Source: Candidatus Fermentibacterales bacterium (GTDB taxonomy: Bacteria > Fermentibacterota > Fermentibacteria > Fermentibacterales > JAFGKQ01). Taken from it: 6,374 bases of DNA. A program made the position numbers and the translations under genes. The notes under the pieces were generated by a model that saw nothing but the letters and a program-made list of their open reading frames with translations, did no database searches and was not told the DNA's origin. Positions within the stretch are counted from its first letter, which is position 1, and each line of letters begins with the position of its first letter. The stretch spans positions 1 to 6,374 of the forward strand of contig JAFGKQ010000045.1 in assembly GCA_016928495.1 (NCBI GenBank). The letters run 5' to 3'. This document shows, piece after piece, positions 1 to 6,374 of this stretch.

Positions 1-726
1 ATCCTCGAGGTGCTGGAGACTGCGCTCGGCTTCCCCGTCGACATCGAGTTCGCCTATGCGGGGGACATCCAGACTCCCTACCTGCTCCAGTGCCGCCCGC
101 AGAGCTACGGGGTGTCCCGGAGCAGCGTCTCGATCCCGACAGGGGTCCCACAGTCGGACCAGCTCTTCACCGCCAACAGGTTCGTCACCGACGGCCTTGC
201 CGAGGAGATCGAGTACATCGTCTTCGTGGATCCGATGGAGTACGATCTCCTTCAGGGCATGGAGGACCTGATCGAGGTGGGCCGAGCGGTCGGCACGCTC
301 AACAAGAAGCTGCCGGCCAGGAGGTTCATACTGATGGGCCCCGGCCGCTGGGGCAGCAGGGGCGATATCAAGCTGGGCGTACGTGTCGGCTACAGCGACA
401 TCAACAACACCGCTGTCCTGGTGGAGATGGCCTTCACGAAGCGGGGCTACGTCCCGGAGCTCTCCTTCGGCACCCACTTCTTCCAGGACCTGGTCGAGGC
501 CGGCATAAAGTACCTCCCCCTCTACCCGGACGACCCCTCGACCTTCTTCAACCGGGAGTTCTTCACTCTCTCCCACAACCAGTTGAAGCGCCTGATACCC
601 GAGGCGCGGCACCTCGAGAAGGTGCTGAAGGTCATCCGCGTCCAACGCGAGGTACCCGAGGCGAACGTCTCGGTCGTGATGAACGGCGAGCAGGACCTCG
701 CCATGGGCTACATCAAGAGGCTCTGA
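1..726 (+). CDS. PEP/pyruvate-binding (PPDK N-terminal-type) family protein, C-terminal part only
   Basis: The reading frame is open from the first base, so the start and most of the ATP-grasp domain lie upstream; 241 residues remain. The visible part begins in the last segment of a PPDK/PEP-synthase nucleotide-binding domain: a DIEFA strand near residues 14-18 and LLQCRPQ near 28-34, the counterpart of the LLQxRP motif that closes this domain in PEP synthases. A further region follows with GPGRWGSRGDIKLGV (from about residue 113), a YSDINN stretch and FGTHFFQDL. No phosphohistidine domain or TIM barrel follows; the protein simply ends after this region. The same GPGRWGS and HFFQ landmarks recur in the next gene, 16 nt downstream, so the two are diverged paralogues and probably share a transcript. 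From family knowledge, the ATP-grasp part binds ATP in phosphoryl-transfer enzymes; the actual reaction here is unknown. The family is secure, the function is not. Confidence 0.85.
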   Translation: MLEVLETALGFPVDIEFAYAGDIQTPYLLQCRPQSYGVSRSSVSIPTGVPQSDQLFTANRFVTDGLAEEIEYIVFVDPMEYDLLQGMEDLIEVGRAVGTLNKKLPARRFILMGPGRWGSRGDIKLGVRVGYSDINNTAVLVEMAFTKRGYVPELSFGTHFFQDLVEAGIKYLPLYPDDPSTFFNREFFTLSHNQLKRLIPEARHLEKVLKVIRVQREVPEANVSVVMNGEQDLAMGYIKRL

Positions 727-742
727 CGGGACCTCCCCGCCC

Positions 743-3733
743 ATGAACACCGAGGAACGGGACTGCGCTCACGCCCTCAGGCTTGAGGGCTCCTACATCT
801 CCAGGCTGAAAGGGCTCCGGCCCTTCCAGATCAGGAAGGTCCTGCTTGTGGCCAGCCTGTACGACTACTTCCTACTGGAGGAGGACGGAAGGCTGGGCGA
901 TCACCTGGCCAAGGCCTACAGGGGCCAGGAGAGGGACTACGTCCCGGTCCTGACCCAGGTTTCAGGCGGAGAGGCGGCGCTCCGGGAGCTCGACGGTTCC
1001 GACTACGACCTGGTCGTGTCCGTGATGCGGGTAGGAGACATGGATCCCAACACCTTCGCGGCCAGGGTCAAGCAGGTTCGCCCGGGGACCCCGTTCGTGA
1101 TGATCGCCTACAACACTCCGGAGCTTCCGCGGCTGGTCGAGAGTAGGGATCCGGATTGCATCGACAGGATCTTCGTCTGGCAGGGGGACGGGAGCATCCT
1201 GCTGGGGATCATCGAACTGATCGAGGACCTGGAGAACGCTGCCTTCGACTCGGAGTCGATAGGCGTGCAGAACCTCCTGCTCGTCGAGGACTCGATATTC
1301 TTCTACTCCAGGTACGTCCACAGGGCCATGGACGTCATCCGGGAGCTCATGAACGACATCCTGGGCACCAGCCTGCCGATGGTGCAGCGCAAGCTCAGGG
1401 CCAGGACACGGCCGAAGCTCCTGCTGGCCTCGAGCTTCGAGGAAGCGGCAAGCCTCTTCGAGACCTACGGGCCGAACATCCTCGGGGTGATCAGCGACCT
1501 GTGCTTCCCGCGAGGCGGGAAGGAAGAGGCCGATGCCGGGCCCGAGCTCGCCCAACTGGTGCGCGAGTCCATGCCAGGGCTGCCCATCCTGTTCCAGTCC
1601 AGCCGGCAGGATGCCGCGAGAGTAGCCGGGAAGATGGGGGTGGGCCTGCTGCGGAAGGACTCCCCTACTCTCATGGCGGACCTGGAAGGGCATCTCCGCA
1701 CCTCGTTCGGATTCGGCGACCTGGTGTTCAGGGCCGAGGATGGGTCCATCAAGGGGACGGTCGGCAACGTGGACGCGCTCTACCTGGCTCTGGGCCGACT
1801 GGATCCGGCCGTGGTATCCCGCTACGTCGTCGGCGGCGAGCTGACCAGGTGGCTGCGCGTTCACACGGAGCTCGAGCTGGCGGACCGGATCAGCTCCCTC
1901 TCGGGGGCGGAGAGGAGCTCCGCACGGGAGATACGGGATGCGGTGCTGGAGACCATGAGGAGCTTCAGGGAGGAGAGCCACCGAGGTTCGGTCGTGACCT
2001 ACTCGCGAGCCTTCTACGAGGACTACTCGAGGTTCAGCAAGCTTGGCGGGGGCTCGGTCGGCGGCAAGGGGAGGGGCCTTGCCTTCATGGACAAGGTGCT
2101 CACGAACAACCTCGACCCGGAGAGGTTCCGGAAGATCTCGATCTCGGTTCCGAGGACGCTGGTGCTGGGGACCGACGTGTTCGACCAGTTCATGACCGAG
2201 AACGATCTACTGGGGTTCGCCCTGGGCCAGGAGAGGGACCTCAGGATCATCAACCGATTCCTGCAGTCGGACCTTCCCCCGACCATCCTGGGCGATCTCA
2301 GGGACTTCGCGAGGGCCATCACCAGCCCCCTGGCGGTGCGCTCCTCCAGTCTCCTCGAGGACGCCCTCTATCAGCCGTTCGCCGGCATCTACTACACCAA
2401 GATGCTGCCCAATAACCACATGGAGTTCGACAGCAGGTTCAGGGACCTTACGGGGGCCATCAAGCTGGTCTACGCCTCCACGTTCCTGCAGGGCGCAAGG
2501 TCCTATATCGAGGCGACCAACCATCGCGCCGAAGAGGAGAAGATGGCCATCCTGATCCAGGAGGTCGTGGGTGACAGGCACGGAACGTGCTTCTACCCGC
2601 ACATCTCCGGGGTGGGAAGGTCCTACGACTACTATCCTGTCGGGTCCGCCGTCCCCGAGGACGGCGTCGTGAACCTCGCGCTCGGGCTGGGCAAGACGGT
2701 CGTGGATGGGGGCGTCTCTCTGAGGTTCACCCCGAGGTATCCCGGGGTCCTCCCTCAGTTCCCCGACACCGCCTCGATGCTGAGGGACTCCCAGAAGACC
2801 TTCTGGGCGATCGATATGGGCCATTCCTCCAGCGTGAGCATGCAGGAGGACGAGGACCAGTACCTGCTCAACCTGGGCCTCGAGCGAGCCGAGGAGCAGG
2901 GAGTGCTGGAGTATCTGGCCTCCACCTACTCCCCGCAGGATGACGTGATCTACGACGGAGTGAACAGGGCGGGACCCCGTGTGCTCAACTTTGCCCACGT
3001 CCTGAAGAACAGGGTGATACCTCTTGCCGAGATACTGGACACACTCCTGAAGATGGGCGAGCAGGCGATGGCCTGCCCGGTGGAGATCGAGTTCGCGGTG
3101 CGGCTCGGAAGTGACAGGCCGACCCCGGCGCACTTCCACCTTCTCCAGATCAGGCCGATGGTGGTGGGTGACGAGCTGGTGGAAGTGGACCTGCAGGGAG
3201 TGGGCGATGAGGGCTCCGTTCTCGTCTACAGCGAGGCAGCTCTCGGGAACGGTGTGATCGAATCGCTGATGGACATCATCTACGTCGATCCGGAAGCCTT
3301 CGACGCTTCGAGCACCAGGGAGATCGTGGAGGAAATCGGCAGCCTGAACCGCACGGCGAGGGAGCGGGGCGACAAGTACCTTCTGATAGGGCCCGGAAGG
3401 TGGGGCTCGTCCGACCCATGGCTGGGCATCCCCGTATGCTGGAATCATGTAAGCAACGCCCGCGTGATCGTCGAGACAGGGCTTGCCAACATGAACGTCG
3501 ACCCGTCCCAGGGCTCCCACTTCTTCCAGAACCTGACTTCGCTCAGAATCGGCTACTTCACCGTGCCATGGCAGAGCGGGAGCGCCAGGATAGACTGGGA
3601 ATGGCTTGCCTCCATGGAGCCGGCCGAGAGCACCGAGCACGTCCGGCGCCTCCGACTGGACAACGCCATCCGCGTGATGATCGACGGAAGGTCCGGGAAA
3701 GGCCTTATTCTCAAGCCATCCGTCGGCAACTGA
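743..3733 (+). CDS. Tandem receiver-like domains fused to a PPDK/PEP-synthase-type ATP-grasp domain
   Basis: A 996-residue soluble protein without signal peptide or membrane segment. REC-like 1 (about 32-165) starts KVLLVAS; the usual phospho-aspartate is replaced (DLVVSVM, Val94), so it looks like a pseudo-receiver. REC 2 (about 177-325) keeps the acidic pair in LLLVEDS (E182, D183), a candidate phospho-acceptor D252 in GVISDLCFP, S286 and K305. The PPDK N-terminal module (about 425-806) shows GGGSVGGKGRGL (K442), PLAVRSSSLLED (R533), EEEKMAILIQE (597-607), LALGLGK (645-651), EIEFA (781-785) and HLLQIRPM (799-806). The C-terminal region has GPGRWGSS (883-890) and SHFFQNLTS (925-933), as in the upstream paralogue. 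The phosphohistidine and PEP/pyruvate barrel domains of real PEP synthases are absent. A phosphorylation-controlled ATP-binding enzyme or regulator is an inference. The start is ATG at 743; no good Shine-Dalgarno precedes it, so coupling to the upstream gene is likely. Databases may label such proteins PEP synthase, which the domains do not justify. Confidence 0.93.
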   Translation: MNTEERDCAHALRLEGSYISRLKGLRPFQIRKVLLVASLYDYFLLEEDGRLGDHLAKAYRGQERDYVPVLTQVSGGEAALRELDGSDYDLVVSVMRVGDMDPNTFAARVKQVRPGTPFVMIAYNTPELPRLVESRDPDCIDRIFVWQGDGSILLGIIELIEDLENAAFDSESIGVQNLLLVEDSIFFYSRYVHRAMDVIRELMNDILGTSLPMVQRKLRARTRPKLLLASSFEEAASLFETYGPNILGVISDLCFPRGGKEEADAGPELAQLVRESMPGLPILFQSSRQDAARVAGKMGVGLLRKDSPTLMADLEGHLRTSFGFGDLVFRAEDGSIKGTVGNVDALYLALGRLDPAVVSRYVVGGELTRWLRVHTELELADRISSLSGAERSSAREIRDAVLETMRSFREESHRGSVVTYSRAFYEDYSRFSKLGGGSVGGKGRGLAFMDKVLTNNLDPERFRKISISVPRTLVLGTDVFDQFMTENDLLGFALGQERDLRIINRFLQSDLPPTILGDLRDFARAITSPLAVRSSSLLEDALYQPFAGIYYTKMLPNNHMEFDSRFRDLTGAIKLVYASTFLQGARSYIEATNHRAEEEKMAILIQEVVGDRHGTCFYPHISGVGRSYDYYPVGSAVPEDGVVNLALGLGKTVVDGGVSLRFTPRYPGVLPQFPDTASMLRDSQKTFWAIDMGHSSSVSMQEDEDQYLLNLGLERAEEQGVLEYLASTYSPQDDVIYDGVNRAGPRVLNFAHVLKNRVIPLAEILDTLLKMGEQAMACPVEIEFAVRLGSDRPTPAHFHLLQIRPMVVGDELVEVDLQGVGDEGSVLVYSEAALGNGVIESLMDIIYVDPEAFDASSTREIVEEIGSLNRTARERGDKYLLIGPGRWGSSDPWLGIPVCWNHVSNARVIVETGLANMNVDPSQGSHFFQNLTSLRIGYFTVPWQSGSARIDWEWLASMEPAESTEHVRRLRLDNAIRVMIDGRSGKGLILKPSVGN

Positions 3734-3808: not shown

Positions 3809-5173
<1,365 letters not shown>

Positions 5174-5461: not shown

Positions 5462-5471
5462 CTGGCTCAGC

Positions 5472-6374
5472 ATGAACTCCCGTCGTCTTGCGTTGCCTCT
5501 TGTCGCGTTCGCCTGTCTCGTCGTCGCCCCCCTGGCAGGCGCGGTCAGTCAGACTCAGACGAGCTGGACCGGAGGACCGGGCGTGGCCGGCCCCGTATCC
5601 ACCTGGGGCACGAGCTTCAGCAGCTCCGCATACATCGAGTACACAACCTACCCCGGCCAGTTGTTCCTGGATCAGGTCATTCTCGGCACTCCAGTGCAGC
5701 ACACCGTGAGGACCAACCTGAACTCGCTGAGGTGGACCTGGGGCGCAGACATCGACATGGACGGGGGCCAGGACCTCATAGCTGCGGTGTCCGGAACCGA
5801 CGACATAATCTGGTGGGAGAACTACGACGATTCCGGGGACACCTGGATCGACCACCTGGTCGACGGCAGCTTCGATGGAGCCTGTTGCGTCATGGCCGCG
5901 GACATCGATGACGACGGGGACACGGACCTCTTCGGCGCCGCCTCCGTGGCGGACGACGTCGCATGGTGGCGTCACGACGGCTCGTCCTGGACGAAGATCC
6001 AGGTGGAGGGCTCTTTCGACGGCGCCTGGACCGTCTACGCTGCCGACATCGATCGTGACTCCGACCTGGACATAGTAGGCGCTGCCAGGAACGCCGACGA
6101 CGTCTGCTGGTTCGAGAACATCGGCGGGATGGGCGCGAGCTGGGTCGAGCACACCATCGACGGCTCATTCGATGGAGCAAGCCACGTCGTCTGTGCCGAT
6201 GTCGATTCCGATGGCGACAAGGACGTGGTTTGCGCCGCCGAGTTCGGCGACATGATAAGCTGGTGGAGCAACAACGGCTCCGGCACATCGTGGAGCGAAC
6301 GGGTTGTCGCCACCGGCTTCGAAGGTGCTTCCTGCGTTCAGGCAGTCGACATGGACGGCGACGGTGACATCGAC
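5472..6374 (+). CDS. Exported FG-GAP/VCBS-repeat protein, N-terminal 301 residues, continues past the window
   Basis: The frame runs open from ATG 5472 to the last base, with no stop in the window. Residues 1-24 form a signal peptide: MNSRR, a hydrophobic core (LALPLVAFACLVVAPL) and an AGA cleavage site before VSQT. Cys15 does not fit a lipobox, so signal peptidase I is expected. Residues 25-91 hold a Trp/Gly/Ser-rich segment (SWTGGPGVAGPVSTWG) that I cannot name. From about residue 92 there are four complete repeats of 48-51 residues and the start of a fifth. Each opens with a calcium-binding-like ADIDxDGDxD motif (first Asp at 93, 144, 192, 243, 293), then a hydrophobic strand, DDxxWW or WF, and SFDGA. 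This is the FG-GAP/VCBS pattern, which normally builds a beta-propeller on secreted or surface proteins. The ligand is unknown. A C-terminal sorting or anchoring domain may lie beyond the window. Its transcription is divergent from gdhA. Confidence 0.9.
   Translation, partial: MNSRRLALPLVAFACLVVAPLAGAVSQTQTSWTGGPGVAGPVSTWGTSFSSSAYIEYTTYPGQLFLDQVILGTPVQHTVRTNLNSLRWTWGADIDMDGGQDLIAAVSGTDDIIWWENYDDSGDTWIDHLVDGSFDGACCVMAADIDDDGDTDLFGAASVADDVAWWRHDGSSWTKIQVEGSFDGAWTVYAADIDRDSDLDIVGAARNADDVCWFENIGGMGASWVEHTIDGSFDGASHVVCADVDSDGDKDVVCAAEFGDMISWWSNNGSGTSWSERVVATGFEGASCVQAVDMDGDGDID
5745..6374 (+). repeat. Protein-coding tandem repeats of about 150 bp (FG-GAP/VCBS units)
   Basis: Units begin at about 5745, 5898, 6042, 6195 and 6345; the last is cut by the window end. 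Spacing is 153, 144, 153 and 150 bp, all multiples of three. They are diverged in DNA but keep the Asp-rich loop, the WW/WF pair and a GSFDGA-like segment; the segments at 5862-5882 and 6159-6179 are still almost identical in sequence, which suggests fairly recent duplication or gene conversion. Confidence 0.85.

Follow-up and report, generated by a model that had tools for sequence, protein, structure and literature searches.

The 6,374-nucleotide stretch of DNA analysed here (the window) encodes a 996-residue protein, protein A, whose family adjoins glutamate dehydrogenase (GDH) genes in many distant bacteria and is therefore probably a signal-controlled, ATP-driven switch for GDH. The protein carries two receiver folds, a PPDK/PEP synthase (PEPS)-type ATP-grasp module and a sequence-orphan C-terminal domain with a predicted swivel-like fold (Table 1). 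The architecture of the family is already known; its pairing with GDH and the cryptic swivel-like domain are new with respect to the literature that was searched. The pairing is the strongest functional clue to the family, and it was missed in the initial annotation of this DNA though it is visible in the window itself, where gdhA and a second family member flank the gene for protein A.

Table 1. Features of the window and the evidence on which each is assigned.
Feature	Position	Strand	Basis
Second family member, paralogue C, C-terminal part (ATP-grasp end and C-terminal domain)	1..726	+	ORF, Pfam
Protein A gene (996 aa): degenerate receiver, receiver, linker, PPDK_N ATP-grasp, C-terminal swivel-like domain	743..3733	+	ATG ORF; Pfam, alignment, AF2
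Receiver domain 1, residues 29-166, degenerate	827..1240	+	VIA-align to PorX and other receivers, Z about 15
Receiver domain 2, residues 175-327	1265..1723	+	VIA-align to ComE and Spo0F, Z 15-16; residue conservation
Helical linker, residues 343-425, DUF5752-like	1769..2017	+	PF19027, weak in protein A, E 0.041
PPDK/PEPS-type ATP-grasp, residues 430-811	2030..3175	+	PF01326, structural matches, conservation
C-terminal domain, residues 812-996, predicted swivelling beta/beta/alpha	3176..3730	+	AF2 domain model, VIA-align
GPGRWGS motif, residues 883-889	3389..3409	+	G885, R886 and G888 invariant in all paralogue types
H926 codon, candidate phosphohistidine	3518..3520	+	helix N-terminus, within PSQG[ST]HFFQN
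gdhA, NADP-specific glutamate dehydrogenase (453 aa), convergent with A	3809..5170	-	NF006929, 743 bits; adjacency kept across loci

The open reading frame of protein A is not a product of chance, since its relatives, close as well as remote, are spread over many phyla. A scan of genome contigs returned at least 570 relatives, mainly from Bacteroidota/Ignavibacteria, Acidobacteria and related phyla, which bears out the initial suggestion that the architecture recurs in other bacteria. The 80 relatives that were kept as homologue loci come from Bacteroidota, Ignavibacteria, Chlorobi, Acidobacteria, Gemmatimonadales, KSB1, Eisenbacteria, Zixibacteria, Calditrichaceae, Fermentibacteraceae and others, and two of these loci (L039 and L097, named Fermentibacteraceae and Aegiribacteria) apparently belong to the window's own order. 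No viral contig encoding a relative was found. Fusions of the same architecture are publicly named 'PEP/pyruvate-binding domain-containing protein', among them a Parabacteroides match that is homologous over 97% of the length. In our search on the receiver-PPDK architecture, DUF5752 and a GDH linkage, which covered the literature incompletely, only a passing remark was found, in an archaeal census that calls such combinations 'Bacteroides-like' (PMC5847659), and neither a function nor a link to GDH. An Rfam search found no RNA in the window, and a defence role for protein A is unsupported because the PADLOC search for defence systems gave no match.

A GDH gene lies within the fetched flank in 45 of the 80 homologue loci, from many phyla, and within 1 kb in 42 of them; in 30 loci, the two genes share a strand and lie no more than 300 bp apart. 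The next commonest neighbour family occurs in 9 of the 80 loci. In several loci (e.g. L053, L055 and L063) GDH and family genes alternate. The window's own order, sampled as 40 genomes with 36 A genes, shows the same adjacency, with 25 of the 36 A genes at most 1 kb from gdhA, some convergent with it and others divergent, and the three genomes of this sample that are devoid of A are also devoid of an NADP-type gdhA (Fisher p 0.0004, a value that is not independent because the two genes adjoin). Genomes that hold the two genes apart are the Bacteroides- and Mediterranea-like gut genomes (G042 and G043) and G064. At one locus (L103:7132-9357), the GDH/A pair is adjoined by two genes that look like a pair of NADPH-dependent glutamate synthase/ferredoxin-NADP reductase type, one of which has relatives in 6 loci.

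The linkage extends to the paralogues. In 11 genomes reached through the homologue loci, 19 genes encode the C-terminal domain and most of them are found beside a GDH gene; among these are paralogues from contigs that had played no part in the selection (G049:C6 and G048:C138). Paralogues B and C carry the ATP-grasp and C-terminal domains with no detectable receivers, yet they too are found at GDH genes. A draw of 61 genomes from a single phylum (60 plus the centre, G045) contains 10 genomes that carry 19 family genes, of which 11 have a GDH gene within 1 kb and 15 within 5 kb, where 0.08 and 0.17, respectively, would be expected; leaving out the selected centre gives 9 of 17 and 13 of 17. In this draw, different paralogue types go with different GDH subclasses: the A-type co-occurs with a subclass of 72-75% identity (7/8 versus 0/53), and the C-type with gdh2, the best-scoring second GDH class (5/5 versus 0/56, at a threshold chosen after seeing the data). 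The p-values overstate independence because the sampled genomes are related, although the effect is still large. Both the GDH neighbourhood and the co-occurrence of the protein A family are thus beyond chance, and the genomic adjacency is a mark of functional association, not of the reaction. The start of the window (G000:C129) and the start of contig G000:C34 look like two parts of one C paralogue, the N-terminal part of which (L001:1-1704, minus strand) lies directly downstream of a different GDH gene; on the contig join that we infer, the genes would run gdh2 - C - A - gdhA. At the other end of the window (5469-6374), the contig breaks off within an FG-GAP repeat protein, leaving its N-terminal part, whose start resembles a signal peptide.

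Pfam assigns one strong domain to protein A, PPDK_N (PF01326; 133.9 bits against a cut-off of 27, residues 438-810), and NCBIfam returns only PEPS/RPH-like ATP-grasp stretches far below cut-offs. In an alignment of 72 sequences (protein A and 71 homologues of 36-45% identity), K442, R533, E781, E783, Q802 and R804 are invariant, and the EIEFA and LLQIRP motifs are present, as the initial annotation of an intact PPDK-type ATP-grasp had held. These six residues are the counterparts of the Lys, Arg, acidic, Gln and Arg positions with which PPDK forms its ATP site. The module superimposes best on RPH (5hv1, Z 26.6), PEPS (2ols, Z 26.1) and PPDK (1dik, Z 18.4). The reported absence of a PEP/pyruvate barrel likewise stands, as Pfam gives no PF02896 match in protein A and the chain stops at residue 996, after the C-terminal domain. 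The AF2 model of the full-length protein (pLDDT 86.2, pTM 0.74) contains no third module of the kind that serves RPH as a separate acceptor-binding module, and all 996 residues are assigned to the receivers, the linker, the ATP-grasp and the swivel-like domain. The DUF5752 family (PF19027) to which the linker is weakly matched is above its curated cut-off in several paralogues.

The remaining 185 residues were originally read as devoid of a catalytic-His swivel domain, which made protein A an 'orphan half' of a PEPS-like enzyme; both statements are probably wrong. Modelled alone, the C-terminal domain (pLDDT 88.5, pTM 0.88) has the predicted order strand-strand-helix-strand-short helix-strand-helix-strand-helix-strand-strand, which is presumably that of the PPDK phosphohistidine domain; H926 opens the helix corresponding to the one that bears the catalytic His in PPDK. 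Alignment of the full model on PEPS (2ols; residues 429..993 on 8..467, 369 aligned) and on PPDK (1dik; spanning 7-511) reaches into the His domain of both enzymes. The best VIA-align matches to the C-terminal domain alone are RPH (5fbu, 755-867, Z 6.8) and PPDK (384-510, Z 6.5 and 6.3), followed by the C-terminal domain of a pyruvate kinase (Z 6.3), EIN-Ntr (6.1), PtsI (5.8) and, lower, other proteins, all at Z values below 8 that may reflect just a common arrangement. H926 is the only invariant one of the 17 histidines of protein A (72/72 sequences, and 99/99 with the paralogues included). The sequence itself carries no such signal: PF00391 is unmatched in protein A and in 75 C-terminal domains of the family, Pfam, NCBIfam and PDB sequence searches gave no match to the domain, and hhalign of its profile against the PPDK and PtsI swivel domains gave a probability below 1%, no better than the reversed control. 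Foldseek with the structure of the domain alone found nothing in the PDB at E <0.001. The GGxT[SC]H/GGxTSHAA motif of phosphohistidine domains is replaced in the family by PSQG[ST]HFF, and the most conserved patches of the domain are GPGRWGS and WLGIPV. On the predicted fold and the invariant His, we consider it likely that this is a true phosphohistidine-type domain.

The order of modules in protein A, an ATP-grasp and after it, in cis, a divergent domain of predicted swivel-like fold that bears one invariant His, is then as in PEPS and PPDK, which makes a stand-alone His protein acting in trans unnecessary. The view first taken, that an ATP-grasp without a His domain phosphorylates a PF00391-type acceptor in trans, could appeal to the missing PF00391 match inside protein A; it is most improbable given the predicted domain in cis, and given that a genome search for a stand-alone PEP-utilising His protein gave PF00391 matches only as parts of long ORFs (596-1224 aa), PPDK-like and PtsI-like ones among them. 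The want of any phosphohistidine sequence signature also lends itself to a second reading, in which protein A would be a non-catalytic ATP sensor that transfers no phosphate and that, governed by its receivers, exerts an allosteric effect on GDH, inhibitory or activating, through docking of its C-terminal domain. The genomic linkage to GDH agrees with such a sensor and the GPGRWGS and WLGIPV patches could form its binding surface, but the invariance of all expected catalytic ATP-site residues and of one His goes beyond what a pure sensor would need, and we regard this reading as unlikely, if worth weighing.

Two receiver-like domains had been reported at the N-terminus, and both folds are recovered by structural alignment (Z about 15-16), with a receiver match in Pfam that is sub-threshold; only the second, however, keeps the residues for phosphorylation. 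The phospho-acceptor position of receiver 1 (residue 94) is Val in protein A and is never Asp in the 72 aligned sequences, so that this degenerate domain departs from the residue pattern of a response regulator. Receiver 2, which carries an insertion between helix 1 and strand 2, conforms to that pattern and retains the acidic pair E182/D183, the phospho-acceptor D252 (codon 1496-1498), S286 and K305 in the same alignment. Sensor input is plausible because a sensor kinase gene follows the A gene in one locus and a PAS-REC-REC paralogue type exists. The former, a PAS-PAS-HisKA_3-HATPase protein encoded directly downstream of A (L040:8927-10366), is a candidate cognate kinase. In several Bacteroidales-type loci, a longer paralogue (about 1200 aa, with DUF5752) is encoded directly upstream of A (L086:2094-5906, L077:2257-5907 and L042:2318-5905); PAS was detected in L086, and receivers in L086 and L042. 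An intact receiver 2 would also suit a phosphorelay, in which the ATP-grasp phosphorylates H926 and the phosphate then passes to D252 of the same or another receiver, transfer from His-P to Asp-P being the chemistry of two-component systems. Protein A would then be an unusual histidine kinase with GDH as one of its outputs, which we consider very unlikely, as paralogues B and C, with no detectable receivers, still sit at GDH genes.

Comparison with known systems places protein A among the dikinases while setting it apart from each of them. It shares with PEPS and PPDK the ATP-site residues of the ATP-grasp and, by prediction, a following swivel-like domain with an invariant His, whereas it lacks the PEP/pyruvate barrel and the GGxTSHAA motif, its C-terminal domain has no sequence homology to theirs, and two N-terminal receivers and the linkage to GDH are its own. 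RPH, its best structural match, and the two-component dikinases HpeHI, CreHI and PpsAB offer a likeness in that a dikinase layout serves a non-pyruvate acceptor, whereas protein A has receivers and is without a rifampin- or phenol-binding module between the ATP-grasp and the swivel domain. The dikinase domain class is known from HpeHI to work with variable acceptor modules (PMC12167813). The C-terminal domain also matches the EIN portion of PtsI and EIN-Ntr (Z 5.8-6.1); PtsI, unlike protein A, has no ATP-grasp and is charged from PEP, not ATP. The swivel His domain of PtsI hands its phosphate on to another protein, which is a precedent for a target that is itself a protein.

These relatives raise the alternative that protein A is a small-molecule dikinase in the manner of RPH, HpeHI and PpsAB, with a metabolite of the GDH reaction, or a nitrogen metabolite related to it, as its substrate (e.g. 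2-oxoglutarate, glutamate or a signal compound), so that adjacency to GDH would reflect a shared pathway and not direct control. The nearest structural relatives, RPH, PEPS, PPDK and HpeI, do act on small molecules, and HpeHI pairs the ATP-grasp and His domains with other acceptor modules (PMC12167813), but no acceptor-binding domain is left in the 996-residue chain and signal receivers are commoner on regulators; we judge this alternative unlikely. With no acceptor module left in protein A, its output, whether phosphate or conformational signal, must be exerted on a partner, for which the genomic data make GDH the first candidate.

Our preferred reading, which we hold tentatively and at somewhat less than an even chance, is that protein A works as a dikinase-like phosphotransfer protein, gated by a signal and dedicated to GDH; the phosphorylation of H926 and the target are both steps that we infer. 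A sensor kinase would phosphorylate D252 of receiver 2, with receiver 1 acting as a structural or dimerising pseudo-receiver, and this phosphorylation would gate the PEPS/PPDK-type ATP-grasp, which would bind ATP and pass a phosphate to H926 on the C-terminal swivelling domain, as in PEP synthase. The putative phosphohistidine would then hand its phosphate to the neighbouring GDH, or GDH would read its state, and the enzyme would be switched on or off by the energy and nitrogen state of the cell. The narrower proposal, that a receiver-gated, PEPS-derived dikinase reversibly phosphorylates GDH through its cryptic phosphohistidine domain, with one kinase paralogue for each GDH type, is possible and on the doubtful side.

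Hundreds of genomes carry this family under no better label than 'PEP/pyruvate-binding domain-containing protein', and its pairing with GDH offers a testable role at the junction of ammonia, 2-oxoglutarate and glutamate. To our knowledge, the control of GDH activity is poorly understood in these phyla, gut Bacteroidota included. In Bacteroides fragilis, GDH was reportedly subject to a reversible inactivation in vivo in work of the 1980s, by an agent that was not known, and the protein A family would be a direct candidate for that agent. If the GDH-phosphorylating reading is true, the family would represent a new kind of protein-modifying enzyme and a dedicated nitrogen/energy switch for Bacteroidota, Acidobacteria and related phyla.
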